A DNA stretch of 64,000 nt from Mycoplasmatota bacterium (GCA_018394295.1 CP074573.1:1426001-1490000); one strand, 5' to 3'; shown: positions 1 to 9,778, counted from the first letter of the stretch. Program-made: numbers and translations. The notes: a model not told the origin generated them from the letters alone.

Positions 1-600
1 AACAAAACTGGAAGCAACATATACTAAATATCTTGAAAGGTTAAATACGCCATCAATTGAAATTGTTGTCCAAATATCCATTAGTAATGAAAACATTACA
101 CCGCCTAGTATACCAATTACTATGAGCAAAATGACATTTGGTTTTTCATTTCTTTTAAAAATTAAACCAGCAATTAAACCGATAAAGCCCCACACAAACA
201 TTTGAAAGGGTGTCCAAGGTCCTTGTCCATAATACATGTTAGATACTAAAGCCGAAAATGAACCTGTTAAAAAACCGGCTTCTGAACCAAAGGCAATTGC
301 GGTAATTATTACGATTGCGGTAACTGGTTTAAAACCTGGAATTGGAGCAAATATTAACCTTCCAACAACTGAAATTGTTATCATTACTGCTATAACAATA
401 AGTTCTCTTGATTCATATTTATTTTTTTCAAAACGAATAAAAAACGGTATACAAGAAAAAATGGCTATTCCCATGGAAATTATATTATATTTTCTGTCGT
501 TAAATAATATAACGCCAATAGCTATCATTAAAGGTATTATAATAGCATATATAACTAAACTTATAATAAATTTTTTACTTATCTTTTTTTCTTTATCCAT
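1..600 (-). CDS. ECF transporter S component (cobalamin CbrT-like), 3' part cut by window edge
   Basis: Membrane substrate-binding (S) subunit of an energy-coupling-factor importer. The reverse complement from the ATG at 598-600 stays open to the window edge (200 codons), so the C-terminus lies outside. Hydrophobic helices alternate with short loops. The segment GFKPVTAIVIITAIAFGSEA followed by GFLTGSFSALVSNMYYGQGP and WTPFQMFVWGF is typical of S components found beside DUF4430 genes. It overlaps the ATPase stop by 8 bp and has a GGTGAA ribosome site. It is the sixth gene of an operon behind a cobalamin riboswitch, so cobalamin or another corrinoid is the likely cargo; that assignment is inference from context, since S components diverge fast. 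Confidence 0.8.
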   Translation of the reverse strand, partial: MDKEKKISKKFIISLVIYAIIIPLMIAIGVILFNDRKYNIISMGIAIFSCIPFFIRFEKNKYESRELIVIAVMITISVVGRLIFAPIPGFKPVTAIVIITAIAFGSEAGFLTGSFSALVSNMYYGQGPWTPFQMFVWGFIGLIAGLIFKRNEKPNVILLIVIGILGGVMFSLLMDIWTTISIDGVFNLSRYLVYVASSFV

Positions 601-2272
601 AAATTTCACCATTTTCCCTACATAAACGAATCACCATATCGCAAGTGATAGTATTACTATACAACTGTCTTGAAATTCTTGAAGCTGCTGTTGTATAGTA
701 ACTGTTCTTTGAAAAGAAGTCGACTGGTGTTTCTACAGAAACGATTTGCCCATCAAAGAACATTGCACATCTATCAGCATGCTCAGCAGCAAATTCGATG
801 TCGTGCGTTACCATTACAATAGTAATTCCTTCTTGTTTTAGTTGTGCTAATATATCCGCTAAAACTTTTTTCGAATAAGCATCAATACCTTTCGTTGGCT
901 CATCAAGTAGTATAATTTTGGGCTTCATCAGTAGTATTTTCGCAAAAGCAGCTTTTTGTTGCTCACCACCACTTAGATCATATGGATGTCTATTATACAA
1001 ATGCTCAATTTCAAGTTTTTCTGTTATATCTGCTATCATTTCTTTACTTTCTTTTTTATCATATTCCATGATTTTTGTTACTTCAAGCAAATCTTCATAA
1101 ACCGTACTTTTAACAAAAAGTGTCTGAGGATTTTGTGGTAAAGAAGCTATATTATTTCTATATAGACTATTTTTATTATACTCCTTTATCTTCTTACCCC
1201 AAATTCTTAGTTTACCTCTATATAGTCTTTTAAGTCCATTTAAAATCTTTAAAGTGGTTGTTTTTCCCGCACCATTTCCTCCTAAAATACAGATCATTTC
1301 GTTTTTGTATACTTTTAAATTTAATCCAGAAAGTACATCCGGTAAATCTCTTTCATATCTAAAATAACCTTCAGCTATCTCTAACGCAATCTCTCTATTT
1401 TCGTAGTTTAGTTTATCTATCTTAAGTGATTTTACCTCAGTATTAAAATGTTTATTTAAGAAGTCCTTACCTTCTCTTACAGTTAACGGACACTCATCAT
1501 CAATATCAAATTGATTAAAAATTCTGATACTTGATGGCATACCTAAATTCATTTTATGACCATTTATGTTTTTTAATTTCTTACCTACTTCACGAGGAGA
1601 ATCAATTAATAACACCCGTGCTTTATCCATCAAGATAGCTTTGCTTGCAATCGGAAAAACTTCTTCTAGTCGATGTTCAACTAATAAGATGGTAATTCCT
1701 AATTCATTATTTATCTTTTTTAAAGTTGCAATAAATTCAGATGCAGCTATCGGGTCTAATTGACTTGTTGGTTCATCTAAAATAATCACTTTTGGTTGCA
1801 TAACCATGATGGATGCTAGAATTAGAAGTTGTTTTTGTCCGCCACTTAATTCACTCGTTTTCTTTCTATACCAATCACTAATCCCGAAAAAGCCAGATAT
1901 TTCAGCGACCTTACGCCTTATTACACTAATAGATTCCCCCATGTTTTCTAGTCCAAAAGCAAGTTCATGCCAAACTTTATCTGTTACAATCTGATTATCA
2001 GGGTTTTGCATAACAAAACCAATATCAGTAACTGAGATTCGTTCATCTAGAGCTGAAATATCAGTCCCATTATACAATACTTCACCACTCTTTTCTCCAT
2101 AAGGCGCTAGTTGCTTCTTAAATAATTTAAGAAGCGTTGTTTTCCCGCAGCCTGATTCACCACATAAGACAACAAATTCACCCTCATTAATTTTAAAGTT
2201 AACATTGTCTAGTACTTTTTCCTTAGTGGAATTATATTTAAATGTTAGATCTTTGACTTCAAGTACAGCCAT
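593..2272 (-). CDS. Fused double ATP-binding protein of ECF importer (EcfA1-EcfA2)
   Basis: Energising subunit of the ECF importer, acting on the cytoplasmic face. Two complete ABC ATPase domains lie in one 559-aa chain. The first has Walker A GESGCGKTT near residue 39, signature SELSGGQKQ and Walker B VIILDEPTSQLD. The second has Walker A GGNGAGKTT near residue 330, signature YDLSGGEQQK and Walker B IILLDEPTKGID. Many ECF systems use two separate EcfA proteins; here they are fused. The start has a clear AAGGAGA site and lies inside the 3' end of the ecfT gene (28-bp overlap), indicating translational coupling. A fused ATPase next to its own T and S genes suggests a dedicated group I importer. 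Confidence 0.93.
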   Translation of the reverse strand: MAVLEVKDLTFKYNSTKEKVLDNVNFKINEGEFVVLCGESGCGKTTLLKLFKKQLAPYGEKSGEVLYNGTDISALDERISVTDIGFVMQNPDNQIVTDKVWHELAFGLENMGESISVIRRKVAEISGFFGISDWYRKKTSELSGGQKQLLILASIMVMQPKVIILDEPTSQLDPIAASEFIATLKKINNELGITILLVEHRLEEVFPIASKAILMDKARVLLIDSPREVGKKLKNINGHKMNLGMPSSIRIFNQFDIDDECPLTVREGKDFLNKHFNTEVKSLKIDKLNYENREIALEIAEGYFRYERDLPDVLSGLNLKVYKNEMICILGGNGAGKTTTLKILNGLKRLYRGKLRIWGKKIKEYNKNSLYRNNIASLPQNPQTLFVKSTVYEDLLEVTKIMEYDKKESKEMIADITEKLEIEHLYNRHPYDLSGGEQQKAAFAKILLMKPKIILLDEPTKGIDAYSKKVLADILAQLKQEGITIVMVTHDIEFAAEHADRCAMFFDGQIVSVETPVDFFSKNSYYTTAASRISRQLYSNTITCDMVIRLCRENGEIYG

Positions 2273-3126
2273 AAAATATTCTCCTTAATCTCTAGTATTG
2301 TAGTAAGTATCATAAGTAAAAACAACCCAATATATAACACAATAGCTAAGCAGCTAATATTTATTGTACTCATCGTAGGATAAAGCAAATAATCTCCAAA
2401 GTCTGCAAACATTAAGCCATATACAAGTATTGTAAGCATTCCTATTATAATCGCTAAAATACTATCTTTACTTGTCCAAATAAAGATTGAATAGCTAGTT
2501 CTCCCTTTTAATCCATAACCCCTTGCTCTCATTGAATCCGCTGTTTCTACTGAGTTCTCTAAGCTCCAAGTGATTAAAATAGACAGCACACGCATTTTAC
2601 TCCTTATTTTATCTACATAACTTTTAGATGCATAAATACCAAGTGCTTTTTGTGAATCATTAATAGCAATAAATTGTTTTTTAAATTTAGGAATGAAACT
2701 TAATACCATAGAAAGTAATAATGACAATTTAGGAGCGATTCTACCAAATAAATAAATAAATTTATCACTAGTCATAACCTCATTGTAGCATTTAAACCAA
2801 TAAAATATAGACATAATCATCATAGCTGCAAATAAACCATAGAGTATTGCCTCTAAGGTTACTGGATTATCATTTAGAAAAAATAATATCGTTTCTCCTT
2901 TATGAACAAATAGTGGATTAGTAAGAGCAATGATAATTAGAATTGGTAAACTATATAATAAACTCTTTACGAGCTCTTTAATACCTATCAACATGCCACA
3001 GAAAAGAATACTAGAAACAAAAGATATGGTAATTAATACAGGGTTCATTGTAAACATTGTTATAAAAATTACCCCTAAAAAATAAATAAATAATAGTATA
3101 GGATGATAGCCCTCAAAGCATTTCAT
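2245..3126 (-). CDS. ECF transporter T component (EcfT)
   Basis: Integral membrane scaffold that couples the ATPases to the S component. 293 aa with several hydrophobic helices in the N-terminal half and a final C-terminal helix. The motif DSMRARGYGLKGR near residue 197 is the conserved Ala-Arg-Gly coupling motif that docks on the ATPase. It begins immediately downstream of the DUF4430 gene stop and overlaps the ATPase gene. Its place between the surface binding proteins and the ATPase gene supports one transcript and one function. Confidence 0.9.
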   Translation of the reverse strand: MKCFEGYHPILLFIYFLGVIFITMFTMNPVLITISFVSSILFCGMLIGIKELVKSLLYSLPILIIIALTNPLFVHKGETILFFLNDNPVTLEAILYGLFAAMMIMSIFYWFKCYNEVMTSDKFIYLFGRIAPKLSLLLSMVLSFIPKFKKQFIAINDSQKALGIYASKSYVDKIRSKMRVLSILITWSLENSVETADSMRARGYGLKGRTSYSIFIWTSKDSILAIIIGMLTILVYGLMFADFGDYLLYPTMSTINISCLAIVLYIGLFLLMILTTILEIKENILWLYLKSKI

Positions 3127-3666
3127 TTACCCCACCTCCCAATCATTACCTACATCTCGTCCTAAATCACAGGTATAAACCCATTCAATAACATCTCCAT
3201 CTTTTAATACATATTTACTACTTCCATAGTTGGGAAATTCACCATTTACCAGATACATCCACCCTGATAAAGGTCCACAACTAAATTCATACAAGTGGTT
3301 TATACCTTGAATATAATTACTACCAAAATTTGTTGAATAAGTGTGTTCCATATGAATACGATTGTGTCTTGTTGCTCGATCTAAAATATCAAAAACTGTA
3401 TCGCCAGGTCTTAAAACATATTCAGTTTGAGCAAGAATTACACCATCACTTGGCACATATTTTTCAAATTTTAAACTATCATCTAAATCATCCCAATTGT
3501 TTAATATAGTCTCACATTTTATAGACAAAAAAACAGTCTCACTTTCTTCTGTTATATCATCAATATGAGTTAAATAGTAGTCTTCAACTGATTGGATTTT
3601 TGTTCCGTTAAATAGCAGAACTAATAGAAAAATAACGACACAAATAGCGACCAGATCTTTCTTCAT
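3127..3666 (-). CDS. Membrane-anchored DUF4430 (transcobalamin C-terminal-like) protein
   Basis: Secreted or membrane-anchored protein of 179 aa. One N-terminal hydrophobic helix (about residues 4-22, no lipobox cysteine) is followed by an extracytoplasmic domain ending in GPLSGWMYLVNGEFPNYGSS and YVLKDGDVIEWVYTCDLGRD. The GWMY-VN-FPN and DGDVI-W-Y-GRD blocks are the signature of the DUF4430 family, the beta domain that forms the C-terminal half of human transcobalamin and intrinsic factor. I place the start at the ATG at 3666 (GAGG six bases upstream) rather than the in-frame GTG twelve bases earlier, which lies within the neighbouring gene. One base separates it from the upstream stop, so it is co-translated with the alpha/alpha-domain protein. 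Likely role: part of a corrinoid capture complex. Confidence 0.82.
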   Translation of the reverse strand: MKKDLVAICVVIFLLVLLFNGTKIQSVEDYYLTHIDDITEESETVFLSIKCETILNNWDDLDDSLKFEKYVPSDGVILAQTEYVLRPGDTVFDILDRATRHNRIHMEHTYSTNFGSNYIQGINHLYEFSCGPLSGWMYLVNGEFPNYGSSKYVLKDGDVIEWVYTCDLGRDVGNDWEVG

Positions 3667-3667
3667 A

Positions 3668-5539
3668 CTATTCCTCACTCTCTGGCATAAATTTTTCTAA
3701 CCTTTTTTTCTTTCTATGTCTAATATTTAAAACGATATAGACTGAAAGACTGATAGCTACTATTCCTAAAACACTACCTATATACAGAGCAGTTGTTAAA
3801 TTATCAACTTGAGTTTTTGATTTTAATAAATCTTCATAATGAGTAATCTTCGTTTTATCATAATTTGATAATGCATTATATCTATTAACTAATTCATTTA
3901 TCGTTTCCTTATCCTTTAGTCCTATATTGTCAAAAGGATGTAATTTATCTTGAATTTCTTCATTTATTCTATCTATTTCTGCTTGAATAGCTAAAATTTC
4001 ATTATATGTCATATCTAACTTGATTTTGTAAGTTTCTTTACCTTCAAACGCCTCAGAATGTTCCAAAATATAGCGCAAATTAACAACCTCAACATAGTAC
4101 TTAGTTGTTAAGTCTTCACTTTTTGGCAAGTTATTAGTAGCTATTTTATTACTCTCAGTAAAATAAAGAATTATATCTTCTTCTCCGCTATTATTTCCAC
4201 TATAATTTAATTTCTCATTTGGCAATTTTAAGTTATATTTCTTTGTATATTTAGATAAAATCCAATAATTAGATATATAAGATCTATCAAGGGTTGGAAC
4301 TGAATAATACAACTGTAATGCATCTTCAACCTCACTCTTGGTTGAAGTATCATTTAAGTTATTAATTGAATTAATGGTATTATCAAGTACTTGTCTTTCA
4401 TCTGTTGTAAACTCTGTTCTCATATCATAAAGAGTGCGCATATTGTTACTAAATCTATAAAGAGAAACTAAAGAATATAATGTTTGCTCACTAGCCATCG
4501 TATTAGCTTCATCAGGTTTTGATGATGGATTGTCAGGGTCATAGGTAAAGGAATGTAAAAATCCACCATTATCAAGTCTATATTTCATAATACCATCAAT
4601 TAAGGTGTTACCATTTTTAATAAATCTTGGATCCGTTTCAGGATTAATACCTAAGCTACAAAGTGCAACTAAGACCTGATCCGTACTTTCAACATTTTGC
4701 ATTCCCCAACTAGAAAAATCACCATCATCAGTTTGTACACTAGATAGCAAAGCAATGCATTCATCGATTACTTGCTTGACAGATTTTTCCATCGTTATAT
4801 ATTGATTATTATCATCTTTTATTTTACTAGAGGTATAAGAGAAAACGATCTCACTATTGTAGTAGGGTGCTAAGGCTTGCATAGCCATTGCGGTTATATC
4901 AGGGTCTGATACCTTACCAGATAGTGCAAATCCACCATCTACAAGTTGTGTCTTTAATATTTCAACGATAAAATCTTGTCTTGTATGATAAGCATCCTCT
5001 GGCACCTCATATCTACTGCTGTCTAGCGCTATTAAAGACCAAATCCAACCATTGATTCCCTGTCTACCTGGGGATGCAGTTCCCCCTCTATTGTATGTGC
5101 CATCAGCAATCAAATCTATTGGATTCCCATTATATTCACCAATAGCAGTAGGGTTTCCACCCATAGCTGTTACCGCAAGTGAAATTCTATGCCACTCAGT
5201 AGCTTTTGCTTTATGCAACTTATATGGTGTTTGATATCTTTCATTTATCTTATCAGTTATAACGGCAAGGTAAGCATTATAATCATCAGAATAATTGTAT
5301 CTACCTAAACCGATTGGATACCAGTCTCCAGGCGTAGTTCCAGCAAACTGTAAGTAAGTACTATTGATTAGATTTTCTTCGTTTGTAGCACCAACATCTG
5401 ATTTTTTCCAATTTATAAGATCTTCTATTACTTCTTCTAAATCAAAATCTCTTTCCTTAGCAAATGCCGAATTGGCGGAAGGGAAACCCATTCCGCCAAT
5501 AAGTACAATTGCAATTAGCAGTAATACTAATCGTTTCAT
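3668..5539 (-). CDS. Secreted membrane-anchored alpha/alpha-barrel (squalene cyclase/prenyltransferase-like) protein
   Basis: 623-aa surface protein. A signal peptide (residues 1-27) is followed by helical repeats of the terpene-cyclase/prenyltransferase fold at about 60-390; recurring glycine-rich turns include DGGFALSGKVSDPDITAMAM, DDGDFSSWGM and DNGGFLHSFTYDPD. A helical linker follows, then a C-terminal membrane helix (about 580-605) and a basic tail HRKKKR, so the domain faces outward. Catalytic Asp-rich motifs of real cyclases are not evident; in transcobalamins the same fold binds B12. It overlaps the lipoprotein gene by 4 bp and is followed after 1 bp by the DUF4430 gene. Together these two proteins reproduce the two-domain layout of transcobalamin on separate chains. 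Enzymatic activity looks unlikely; ligand binding is inferred. Confidence 0.8.
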   Translation of the reverse strand: MKRLVLLLIAIVLIGGMGFPSANSAFAKERDFDLEEVIEDLINWKKSDVGATNEENLINSTYLQFAGTTPGDWYPIGLGRYNYSDDYNAYLAVITDKINERYQTPYKLHKAKATEWHRISLAVTAMGGNPTAIGEYNGNPIDLIADGTYNRGGTASPGRQGINGWIWSLIALDSSRYEVPEDAYHTRQDFIVEILKTQLVDGGFALSGKVSDPDITAMAMQALAPYYNSEIVFSYTSSKIKDDNNQYITMEKSVKQVIDECIALLSSVQTDDGDFSSWGMQNVESTDQVLVALCSLGINPETDPRFIKNGNTLIDGIMKYRLDNGGFLHSFTYDPDNPSSKPDEANTMASEQTLYSLVSLYRFSNNMRTLYDMRTEFTTDERQVLDNTINSINNLNDTSTKSEVEDALQLYYSVPTLDRSYISNYWILSKYTKKYNLKLPNEKLNYSGNNSGEEDIILYFTESNKIATNNLPKSEDLTTKYYVEVVNLRYILEHSEAFEGKETYKIKLDMTYNEILAIQAEIDRINEEIQDKLHPFDNIGLKDKETINELVNRYNALSNYDKTKITHYEDLLKSKTQVDNLTTALYIGSVLGIVAISLSVYIVLNIRHRKKKRLEKFMPESEE

Positions 5540-8500
5540 TGTATATCATCCTTGTATGCCTCGTAAAGATTTTGGTAAGCTACATCTAAAGCAGCTTGAG
5601 TCGTTCCAATTTCCTGAATAGCTACATAAGCATCCGTGTATGCTTGTTCTTGTGGAAGACCTAAGGTATTAATTTGAGCAAGTAAAGCTGTCAACTCAGC
5701 TTTATTAACGTCTTCAAAGAAATTTTCTCCCCAGAAACCACCAACACCAATATCACGACCATAACCAAATAATGTAAATTGAACTCTAATTACATCTCCA
5801 TCTTGTGGATTATAATCAGCAAAACCAACATTAGGGAATACATCATTTACTGAATACATCCAACCAGACATATAAGTATATTCAAATTCACCTAATGTAT
5901 TATTATCAGATGGTGTATCAATCGAACCACCCTCTTCTTCTATTTTCTGTCTTAATACTTCTGGTGTATTATCTTGATGTGTAAATCCTTCTATCTGTGA
6001 CAAATAAAAACCACTGTCTAAACTTCCACTAGATTGATAAGTATAACCATTTTCTACCTCTAAAACATAGGCAAGTAAATAAGAACCATTAAGACCTTCT
6101 TCCATTCTATCAATATCTATAGAACCAAAGAAATGCTCACTCATTGCACTTAAATAATTATCATCTAATGTAATAACCATAGGCTCAACAAGATAGCCAC
6201 AACCGATTGTGTGCGCTTCTACTGCCATCGTAACTGTAGTAGGACCTTTTTCATAATAGACCGTATAAGTAACTGTTTTAGAATAACCATTTGCTGTAGC
6301 CGTAATAGTAATAATATTTTCGTATTCAACAAACTCTAAACTATAGCTTGTCTTTTCTACATCATCCCAATTCATCAAGACGTTTTCTCCATTGCAGATT
6401 ATTACGACATCACTACTGTTAATCTTATTTCCAGCTTTGTCTTTTGCCCAAATATCAAAGGTTAGTTTACTGTTAGTGTAAGTTTTTCCCTCTTCAAGAT
6501 TTGAGACAATAGTAGGTGCATTTTCTAATTCTTCTTGAGTAAGTTCTGCATCAGTTTTAACAAGATCAATGATGGCCTTAGCATCACTTAAAGCATTAGC
6601 TATCTCACTAGAACTTATCGCATTGTCAATCGCTAATTTCCCATCAGCAATTAAATTTGTTATCTCTAGTTGTTGTTCATCTCTATAATCATTAAGAGTT
6701 ACATAGTTTTCTAATTCAGTCTTAGCATCAGTCTTTAATGTGTCATAATTTACTTGAGTTACTGCTAATACATAACCTGAATCATTTTTATAATATAAAA
6801 CACCGTCTTTACTTGCGATTATGCTTGTAATACAGTATTGTTGTTGTGCTGAATCAGGTATAAATAAATCATAACCATTCGCTTCAGTTTGTCCTGGTTT
6901 ATCTGTTATTGCATAAATTCCACCTGGATAACCATTATAAGTAGAATAGATATACAATGTATCATCTTCTCCAAGGTACGCTGTAGAAAGAAGTAATGAG
7001 TTTTGTGGATAGGCAGACATATCTGCCGTGTAAATTAACTCTAAGTTTTCTGTATCGATTACTGCTAACTTACCACTTGAAAAGCCTTGTCCTAATCCAA
7101 TATATACTCTTCCATTATACACTACTGGTGTACTTGTACTCTGCCATCCTGATAATACCTCTACAGATTCTAAATTACTAATTTCTCCTGTTGTACTATC
7201 TACTGTTGCAGAATATAAATATGCATTCTTACTTGTAAAGTATATCTTATTATTTTCTTCATCATAGGCGATGCTTGAACGTTGATCACCTGTTATATCA
7301 AGTGCACTGATGATTTCTCCAGTGATTTTATTAAAAGCGTATAGCTTAGCTGAATCACTATCATAACTAGATGTTCCATCATCTGTTCCAACTATAACTG
7401 CATCTCCGATAACTACTGAACCTGCCCAATAGAAACCACCTGCTTGTGTATGTGTCCAACTTGATAATTTTTCTTCATTAGTAGATGTTGTATCCTCATC
7501 TGTGATTGATATACAAACAAAGTTTGCATCTTTTGTTTCACTATTCCAAAAGCCTGTATAAATATATCCATCTGAGTAAGTGATTGGAGATAGAGATTGA
7601 CCAACTAATGCATCGTGGTAAATCCAAAGTGATTCTAATGTTTTGGCATTAAACGCTTGGATTCTACCATTACTTAGTGGCACAAAAATCATTCCTTCTG
7701 CATAAGTCGCTGGTGTATAACCCCAGTTTGTTGCAGCTACCATTGTACCTCTTGCAATTTCATCTCCTGTTTCTAAATTATATTTTATTATTGATGTACC
7801 TGCCATTACTATCAAACTATCATCAACAATAATTTGGATACTTGGTGCATCAGTCCAACCTGTTGCTACTTTTTTAGCCCAAAGCAATTCTCCTTCTATT
7901 GGAGTTAATGCATCTGTAATTCCCATATTGGCATTACTGTTTCTAAAGTTATACCAATCAGATGTTACCGATGTCGGCTGATTACCAACTGGTGCTACTA
8001 ATGTAATTTCTATTACACCACCATTTACGTCAATCGTACCAGTCTGTGCTACAAAACCTGTCTTAGTTACTTGATAGGTGTATTCATTCATTCCATCTAA
8101 TAAATAATACCCATCAACAGCGCTAACCAAAGTATTTTCGCTATCAAATACTCTAATAATTGCTTCATCTTCATTAATTTCAAATTTTGCTCGTGCATCT
8201 ATATTCAGTTCAATGATACCAGATATAGTATTGTAGTTTTCTGTATCAGTTGGTGTAAATATCCATTCACACTCATTTTCTCCTATTTCCATTGTGTAGG
8301 TAGAATTTACCCAGGTAAATGTACCTTCTACACTTGCCTCACCTGCATTTAATTGAGGTAAAGCACTTCCGTATAATAAACCTTCATTACTTGCCGTTGG
8401 ATTTGTGTTTATATTAGGTGTCGCTTTATCAGCAGATAAAACTAAAGTATCTGTCACTATATTATAATTATCTGTATCGTTTGGTGTAAATGTCCATTCA

Positions 8501-9327
8501 CATTCATTTTCACCTATTTCCATTGTATAGGCAGAATTAACCCAAGCAAAAGTACCTTCTACACTAGCTTCACCCGCAGTTATTTGAGGTAAGCTACTTC
8601 CATATACCAATTCTTCACTACTTACTACTGGATTTGAAATAATAGTTGGTATCGCTTTTTCAACGACTAGTGGTACAGATATTTTTACTGTTGAATTATC
8701 ATTATAAGTAAAAATCGCATTATATTCGCCAATATTTACAGTAGGTACAGTAGAAACTGTTTCCCAAGCCCACCCCTCAGGCAGATTAATGTCAGCTAAT
8801 GTGATATTTGGGTCATAGGTTATGTTATTTAAGTCAGGTGCACTTATTCCTGGATAAGCTGTTACTTGAATACTCACTTCTACTGTATTATAGTTTATTG
8901 TATCTTCTGGAGTGAATATCACAAGATAATCATTTACCCCCTCTAATAAAACTGAGTCAGCATTCTTCCATGTCCAACTATCAGGTATATCAATATCATT
9001 TAGTGTTTTAGCATCTACATAATCTGTAATTATGTTTGTAGGTTTTTGATAAGTCGGTGTTGTTTTAGATATTGACAATGATAAATTATAGACCTTTTTT
9101 GTTCCATCCTCTTTTGTAAAAATAGCTTTGTAGGTAGTTACATCAACCGTTGGAACGATGGTACTATCTTCCCATTCCCATCCTTCTGGTAATTCAACGC
9201 TAGCTAGTGTTCTTGTTGAATCATATTCTAATGAGTTCAAGCTTGGAAGTTCTACATTCTTAAAACAACCTGTCAATGCTAGCATAATTGCGAAAACAAT
9301 CAAAAATATAAATGGTTTCTTTTTCAT
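5536..9327 (-). CDS. Large lipoprotein: MBG-like repeats, PQQ-type beta-propeller, helical linker and DUF4430
   Basis: First gene of the corrinoid operon, 1263 aa. Signal peptide with lipobox LTGC puts the lipid anchor at Cys21. Residues about 30-230 hold divergent repeats with ATYDPNxTLxxIxLPxGWxW patterns. About 235-375 hold two near-identical MBG-type repeats (YGSxLPQxxAGEASVEGTF). About 455-815 form a propeller-like segment with recurring Trp/Gly blades (VYIGLGQGF, IYTGFWNSE). A helical FIVAR-like stretch (about 830-890) precedes an Ig-like domain and a DUF4430 domain at about 1020-1215 (SGWMYSVNDVFPNVGFADY, QDGDVIRVQFTLFGYGRDIG). GGGGAG ribosome site. Likely an exposed corrinoid-binding or corrinoid-protein-docking scaffold; the exact ligand is unknown. 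Confidence 0.8.
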   Translation of the reverse strand: MKKKPFIFLIVFAIMLALTGCFKNVELPSLNSLEYDSTRTLASVELPEGWEWEDSTIVPTVDVTTYKAIFTKEDGTKKVYNLSLSISKTTPTYQKPTNIITDYVDAKTLNDIDIPDSWTWKNADSVLLEGVNDYLVIFTPEDTINYNTVEVSIQVTAYPGISAPDLNNITYDPNITLADINLPEGWAWETVSTVPTVNIGEYNAIFTYNDNSTVKISVPLVVEKAIPTIISNPVVSSEELVYGSSLPQITAGEASVEGTFAWVNSAYTMEIGENECEWTFTPNDTDNYNIVTDTLVLSADKATPNINTNPTASNEGLLYGSALPQLNAGEASVEGTFTWVNSTYTMEIGENECEWIFTPTDTENYNTISGIIELNIDARAKFEINEDEAIIRVFDSENTLVSAVDGYYLLDGMNEYTYQVTKTGFVAQTGTIDVNGGVIEITLVAPVGNQPTSVTSDWYNFRNSNANMGITDALTPIEGELLWAKKVATGWTDAPSIQIIVDDSLIVMAGTSIIKYNLETGDEIARGTMVAATNWGYTPATYAEGMIFVPLSNGRIQAFNAKTLESLWIYHDALVGQSLSPITYSDGYIYTGFWNSETKDANFVCISITDEDTTSTNEEKLSSWTHTQAGGFYWAGSVVIGDAVIVGTDDGTSSYDSDSAKLYAFNKITGEIISALDITGDQRSSIAYDEENNKIYFTSKNAYLYSATVDSTTGEISNLESVEVLSGWQSTSTPVVYNGRVYIGLGQGFSSGKLAVIDTENLELIYTADMSAYPQNSLLLSTAYLGEDDTLYIYSTYNGYPGGIYAITDKPGQTEANGYDLFIPDSAQQQYCITSIIASKDGVLYYKNDSGYVLAVTQVNYDTLKTDAKTELENYVTLNDYRDEQQLEITNLIADGKLAIDNAISSSEIANALSDAKAIIDLVKTDAELTQEELENAPTIVSNLEEGKTYTNSKLTFDIWAKDKAGNKINSSDVVIICNGENVLMNWDDVEKTSYSLEFVEYENIITITATANGYSKTVTYTVYYEKGPTTVTMAVEAHTIGCGYLVEPMVITLDDNYLSAMSEHFFGSIDIDRMEEGLNGSYLLAYVLEVENGYTYQSSGSLDSGFYLSQIEGFTHQDNTPEVLRQKIEEEGGSIDTPSDNNTLGEFEYTYMSGWMYSVNDVFPNVGFADYNPQDGDVIRVQFTLFGYGRDIGVGGFWGENFFEDVNKAELTALLAQINTLGLPQEQAYTDAYVAIQEIGTTQAALDVAYQNLYEAYKDDIQ

Positions 9328-9444
9328 TTTGGAATCTCCCCTTTCTTATGTGTTAAAAGCATTAATTTTTTTATGTTATGAATTTGCTTTAACCCAATCT
9401 TTAATGAAACCTTGTTTAAGAGTGTTTTTTTTGTTCCAAAGAAC

Positions 9445-9474
9445 AAAAAAACCTCCCGACTAATCTCGGAAGGT
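9445..9474 (-). terminator. Riboswitch-linked intrinsic terminator
   Basis: On the minus strand ACCTTCCGA and TCGGGAGGT pair around a short ATTAG loop and are followed by a run of six T. It sits between the cobalamin aptamer and the first gene, the expected place for a transcription-attenuating expression platform. A second inverted repeat, TTTTTTGTTC / GAACAAAAAA, overlaps the T-run at 9425-9450 and may be an alternative fold. Confidence 0.75.
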
Positions 9475-9549
9475 AAATGAGCATAACTATTAAGCAATCA
9501 AAAATTTTTGACAGCAAAAATAAAAAAGCACACACCATTTCCCACCGAA

Positions 9550-9743
9550 ATGTTTGTTCACAAGTAATAAAGCAGGTCTCCTGACTTATGGCATCAAGTA
9601 CAGCTTTTTGTCTTCCCAAGATTACTCTCAGTGACTTAAGTAAAAAGCTATTAGCCAAATACAGTAGCGGGGGCTGTCACGGGCTCTCACCGTGTTCCCT
9701 TTTAATACATATTTCTATGTAACTTATATCACCTATTCAATTC
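9550..9743 (-). promoter_or_regulatory. Cobalamin riboswitch
   Basis: Minus strand carries the B12-box GTCAGGAGACCTGC at 9571-9584 and the central core CGGTGAGAGCCCGTGACAGC followed by CCCCGCTACTG (about 9663-9692), preceded by AAAAGGGAACA. These are the most conserved blocks of the adenosylcobalamin riboswitch family, in the right order and spacing. It lies between a sigma-A promoter and an intrinsic terminator, in front of the ECF/DUF4430 operon. High coenzyme B12 should favour termination. The outer limits are approximate. Confidence 0.93.
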
Positions 9744-9749
9744 GAACCA

Positions 9750-9778
9750 ATTGTAGCACATCTAAAATCATTATACAA
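9750..9778 (-). promoter_or_regulatory. Sigma-A promoter of the cobalamin operon
   Basis: Minus strand TTGTAT, exactly 17 bases, then TACAAT with an upstream TG (extended -10). The predicted start, near 9743, coincides with the 5' edge of the riboswitch, which supports both calls. Confidence 0.7.

Follow-up and report, generated by a model that had tools for sequence, protein, structure and literature searches.

A cobalamin riboswitch operon of a Mycoplasmatota bacterium encodes separate toroid and DUF4430 surface proteins and a CbrT-like importer

The window analyzed here is a stretch of 64,000 nucleotides from a Mycoplasmatota bacterium (GCA_018394295.1, CP074573.1:1426001-1490000), with positions counted from its first letter. 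At its start, a cobalamin riboswitch and an intrinsic terminator are followed by six tightly packed minus-strand genes, the whole spanning 9742-1 (Table 1). The riboswitch covers the full RF00174 model (positions 1-189), scores far above the gathering score of 31.5 bits and is the best-scoring of the four cobalamin riboswitches in the source genome; its place in the operon leader assigns these genes to the cobalamin riboswitch regulon, as an earlier note on this DNA had claimed. The terminator, 80 bases past the riboswitch, is likely its expression platform.

Table 1. Features of the riboswitch-headed operon, in order of transcription
Feature	Position	Strand	Evidence
Cobalamin riboswitch aptamer (RF00174), complete	9555..9742	-	116.6 bits, E 1.5e-28
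Intrinsic terminator	9451..9474	-	9-bp stem and T-run, fold z-score -4.9
1263-aa lipoprotein: repeats, PQQ-type beta-propeller, C-terminal DUF4430	5536..9327	-	Pfam matches, LTGC lipobox
623-aa alpha/alpha-toroid protein: signal peptide, toroid, C-terminal TM helix	3668..5539	-	Homology to fused toroid; structure model
179-aa DUF4430 protein, N-terminal membrane anchor	3127..3666	-	Pfam E 1.6e-19; ATG at 3666
EcfT / CbiQ-like transmembrane subunit	2245..3126	-	PF02361 E 8.6e-8
EcfA-EcfA, two fused ECF ATPases	593..2272	-	TIGR04520 E 3.5e-111, two stretches
ECF S component, CbrT (B12/cobinamide) family; runs off window	1..612	-	CbrT 6FNP E 1.5e-11

Within the operon each gene either overlaps its neighbor (overlaps of 4, 28 and 20 bp) or abuts it, which makes coupled translation probable. 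The DUF4430 open reading frame has alternative starts at 3678 and 3666 (183 and 179 aa), and the 1-bp gap that the earlier note had placed between the toroid and DUF4430 genes holds provided that the ATG at 3666 is used, which gives the junction TAG-T-ATG. The same note had drawn the operon as 593-9778; its importer genes stand, but the end at 593 does not, as the S component gene lies beyond it (612 to <1 in the window; 244 aa when whole in the source genome). Likewise, the toroid and DUF4430 proteins that it had named as the surface components were recovered, but it had left out the propeller and the second DUF4430 domain of the first gene.

EcfT, the fused EcfA pair and a dedicated S component within one operon make this a Group I ECF transporter, in agreement with the ECF importer previously proposed. 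Compared with CbrT of Lactobacillus delbrueckii (6FNP, chain A), the S component gave E 1.5e-11 as a single sequence (phmmer) and E 1.1e-16 as a profile; the sole other solved S component matched, 4hzu_S, was far weaker (7.5e-5 and 2.7e-6, respectively), placing the protein in the CbrT family. ECF-CbrT carries cobalamin and cobinamide and is active in liposomes without an extracellular partner (PMC5997447), so surface proteins are not obligatory for every CbrT; in the present operon they would most likely raise the affinity or selectivity of capture rather than being obligatory. The L. delbrueckii system shares with this genome the S component family and a linkage to PduO, the latter seen at a second DUF4430 locus described below, but CbrT uses a shared housekeeping ECF module, whereas the operon here has its own EcfT, fused EcfA and surface proteins.

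The 179-aa protein is a member of the DUF4430 family (70.5 bits against a curated cut-off of 23.8), and the copy in the 1263-aa lipoprotein scored 39.3 bits. A DUF4430 profile built from riboswitch-linked loci reached the beta domain of human transcobalamin-2 (5no0) at E 0.0045; together with the structural match of a fusion model to the same domain given below, this similarity places these domains in the transcobalamin C-terminal (SLBB/DUF4430) clade. The nearest solved bacterial DUF4430 structure is RUMGNA_00854 of Ruminococcus gnavus (3u7z, E 9.3e-8), which unlike the proteins here is a stand-alone domain, annotated merely as a putative metal-binding protein.

DUF4430 domains are closely tied to cobalamin riboswitches. 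All three in the source genome lie behind one; the second locus, with its own riboswitch, encodes DUF4430, a CbrT-like S component and a PduO-type adenosyltransferase, with no toroid. Among 60 relatives, 33 of 38 DUF4430 domains have a same-strand cobalamin riboswitch no more than 6 kb upstream of them; in a 34th case, that of the window itself, the distance is 6150 bp. A larger set of 195 genomes from the phylum shares genomes with the 60 relatives and is not independent of them. There, 32 of 42 DUF4430 domains have a cobalamin riboswitch within 7 kb upstream, where riboswitch counts and genome sizes predict 0.135; at least 6 of the 10 exceptions still directly adjoin a CbrT-like S component. 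The earlier note had named homologous operons under signals unrelated to cobalamin as grounds for giving up its reading, and these counts point the other way. Apart from the fusion scan described below, 46 loci were read in all, and in 37 of them DUF4430 adjoins a CbrT-like S component; the S profiles were partly built from these 46 loci, so 6FNP serves as the independent anchor. Many loci have DUF4430 and an S component without a toroid; a two-domain clamp is therefore not a universal requirement.

Some DUF4430 genes occur in other settings. In two other genomes (L044:4463-7283 and L056:5044-7814) the gene lies immediately before nrdD, which encodes the B12-independent ribonucleotide reductase, with no S component close by, and one of the two pairs is behind a cobalamin riboswitch. 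In genome G044 a cobalamin riboswitch is immediately followed by the gene for a lipoprotein containing three DUF4430 domains in tandem, with no adjoining importer (L048:5558-6592), and in the small genome G047 four cobalamin riboswitches within ~12 kb head DUF4430, propeller and ECF genes (L046:1-18001).

A Pfam search assigned no domain to the 623-aa protein, and neither it nor any other protein of the source genome matched PF01122 (eukaryotic cobalamin-binding protein) at E up to 10. Profiles of the toroid and of the fusions, searched against PDB sequences, found no transcobalamin through the toroid sequence. As Pfam and transcobalamin sequence matches are lacking, the identity of the window toroid goes through riboswitch-linked fusion proteins and through its fold. 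In many relatives both domains are carried by one lipoprotein, DUF4430 first, of transcobalamin size, and an hhalign comparison shows the window toroid to be a homolog of the corresponding part of such riboswitch-linked fusions (98.5%, E 1.7e-15). The claim that toroid-type and DUF4430 domains are present here on separate membrane-tethered chains is borne out. One fused toroid (L114) reached PF01122 at E 0.0012, under the family cut-off.

A scan of 84,980 species genomes for DUF4430-toroid fusions or their toroid part returned 35 loci, two of which (L103, L115) are toroid-only lipoproteins; the fusion in one lipoprotein occurs in about 30 species. At 34 of the 35 loci the gene is directly behind a cobalamin riboswitch, and the contig of the 35th has just 49 bp before the match. 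The split arrangement recurs in G044, where the toroid and DUF4430 genes are separate neighbors behind a cobalamin riboswitch. A 592-kb plasmid of Latilactobacillus curvatus (L116:4844-10486) carries the same split order, with an LPXTG-anchored toroid, DUF4430, EcfT, EcfAA and S; no riboswitch match was found for that operon.

The model of an Inordinaticella fusion (L081) had a mean pLDDT of 89.8 and a pTM of 0.86. Its beta domain gave as best PDB matches the human transcobalamin beta domain (5no0, E 7.5e-5) and 3u7z, and its toroid matched terpene cyclases (Z 18.7), intrinsic factor (Z 15.9) and transcobalamin (Z 15.6). The window toroid model was weak overall (mean pLDDT 64) with a confident toroid core, and matched epimerases, terpene cyclases and transcobalamin at Z 15-18. 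Because the scores of the matches to terpene cyclases and sugar epimerases equal or exceed those of the matches to transcobalamin, the toroid fold alone is no proof of B12 binding; as modeled, it fits transcobalamin but does not single transcobalamin out. A class II terpene cyclase, which has the same fold, was considered and rejected: the window toroid is without the DxDD motif, and the context also argues against it. A DxDD string is present in 4 of 27 fused toroids and may be there by chance.

The animal carriers transcobalamin and intrinsic factor (2bb5, 2pmv) also combine an alpha/alpha toroid with a DUF4430 beta-grasp domain, in chains similar in length to the bacterial fusions. They differ from the window operon, which splits the domains into two chains, and from the bacterial fusions, which are lipoproteins with the domains in reversed order (beta first) and whose toroids show marginal sequence similarity.

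The lipoprotein encoded by the first gene, whose N-terminus ends in the lipobox, contains a PQQ_2 match (E 1.3e-10) and, at residues 1147-1185, the second DUF4430 domain (E 9.2e-10), which gives the toroid two possible partners. Its propeller is homologous to those of related operons (E 7e-36) and is present in 6 of 46 loci; a sequence search against the PDB returned no BtuG or other B12 binder, the weak matches being quinoprotein dehydrogenases (E 0.05-0.08). The N-terminal third is made up of repeats that share a recurring 'LPEGWxWE..' motif and match no Pfam family at E 0.1. BtuG of Bacteroides (3DSM) is likewise a riboswitch-linked surface lipoprotein with a beta-propeller, seven-bladed, binding B12 with femtomolar affinity (PMC6143338), but it is Gram-negative, partners BtuB, has no DUF4430 and shows no detected sequence similarity to the propeller here.

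Elsewhere in the source genome, another cobalamin riboswitch precedes genes for a CobC-like phosphatase, an ECF S component, CobS and a 221-aa protein without a Pfam match (L010:3746-6497). This locus likely serves cobinamide salvage, and its S component is possibly an alpha-ribazole transporter; together with the DUF4430-S-PduO locus it would enable the bacterium to salvage corrinoids and to activate them. The fourth cobalamin riboswitch precedes an anaerobic ribonucleotide reductase. No CbiD was found in the source genome; with CobS, the CobC-like phosphatase, a further S component and the reductase all behind cobalamin riboswitches, this gene content fits a corrinoid salvager.

Systems of this kind were predicted by Burroughs et al. 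(2007; PMC1796856), who defined the SLBB/DUF4430 clade and predicted that its bacterial members scavenge B12. They described proteins in which a toroid is fused to the SLBB domain, in either order, a further fusion with a propeller, an operon with paralogous SLBB proteins, and CbiO and CbiQ as neighbors of SLBB genes, and they proposed that a transcobalamin-type system was transferred to animals. The concept is therefore already known, a precedent that the earlier note had not mentioned, and the operon and its relatives resemble those predictions in their SLBB/DUF4430 surface proteins, toroid and propeller fusions, second paralogous SLBB protein and CbiO/CbiQ genes. The operon differs in having the toroid and DUF4430 on separate chains and an S component tied to CbrT. 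New beyond the 2007 prediction are the linkage to riboswitches, which go unmentioned in that paper, the pairing with CbrT and the recurring split architecture. No experimental test of the predicted bacterial scavenger was found in the literature searched, which covered a minority of the subscription journals.

The reading given in the earlier note is supported in part: a role of the operon in the capture and import of B12 or other corrinoids is well supported on comparative sequence grounds, and we infer that the two split chains clamp the corrinoid jointly. The reading that we consider probable is a B12-repressed corrinoid-scavenging operon in which a toroid and DUF4430 clamp at the surface feeds the CbrT-like importer. 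Transcription would take place at low intracellular levels of coenzyme B12; the toroid and DUF4430 proteins, side by side on the membrane, would clamp cobalamin or cobinamide in the manner of the fused domains of animal transcobalamin; the propeller/DUF4430 lipoprotein may act as an outer catcher or as a second clamp; and the corrinoid would be passed to the S component and imported with ATP. A bolder form of this proposal, which we regard as rather doubtful, is a two-chain transcobalamin whose tethered parts clamp the corrinoid only together, with a BtuG-like propeller-DUF4430 protein feeding them and the CbrT-type S component emptying them; such a three-stage surface relay would show a possible bacterial ancestor of the animal B12 carriers from before the domains were fused.

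Other divisions of labor among the surface proteins are conceivable. DUF4430 might be the only B12-binding surface part, working with the CbrT-like S component, and the toroid a polysaccharide-binding accessory of the cell wall or extracellular space, or a scaffold, making no corrinoid contact. The recurrent core of DUF4430 and CbrT-like S, mostly without a separate toroid, agrees with this, as do the toroid-less PduO locus of the same genome and the occurrence of the toroid fold in sugar epimerases and glycoside hydrolases. We nevertheless think it unlikely, given how often toroid and DUF4430 are fused in one lipoprotein behind a cobalamin riboswitch, the match of one fused toroid to PF01122, albeit below cut-off, and the position of B12 in the toroid cavity of transcobalamin (PMC1796856). 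The propeller lipoprotein could instead be the real high-affinity catcher, with the toroid and DUF4430 proteins merely handing the ligand on. That BtuG achieves femtomolar binding from riboswitch-controlled loci (PMC6143338), that homologous propellers recur in several operons of the same type and that a Clostridium propeller fusion was noted by Burroughs et al. (PMC1796856) speak for such a role, but the rarity of the propeller among the loci read and its weak sequence matches, to quinoprotein dehydrogenases rather than to BtuG or B12 binders, make this, too, improbable.

The substrate itself might be cobalt or another cofactor, with the riboswitch only reporting B12 sufficiency. EcfT is a CbiQ-family protein, and that family takes its name from cobalt transport; the Pfam match of the S component is the riboflavin-transporter family PF07155. 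Against this, the S component is far nearer to CbrT than to the other solved S component matched, and DUF4430 is the family of the transcobalamin beta domain; moreover, a genome without CbiD hardly needs cobalt for making corrins de novo. We give this explanation very little credence and retain the corrinoid-scavenging reading.

The operon and its relatives bear on how extracellular B12 is captured by Gram-positive and wall-less bacteria that lack BtuF, a process known only in outline. The riboswitch and the S component family with proven B12 transport make the scavenger prediction of 2007 directly testable with small soluble proteins. The operon family is also relevant to the proposed acquisition of transcobalamin by animals from bacteria of this kind.
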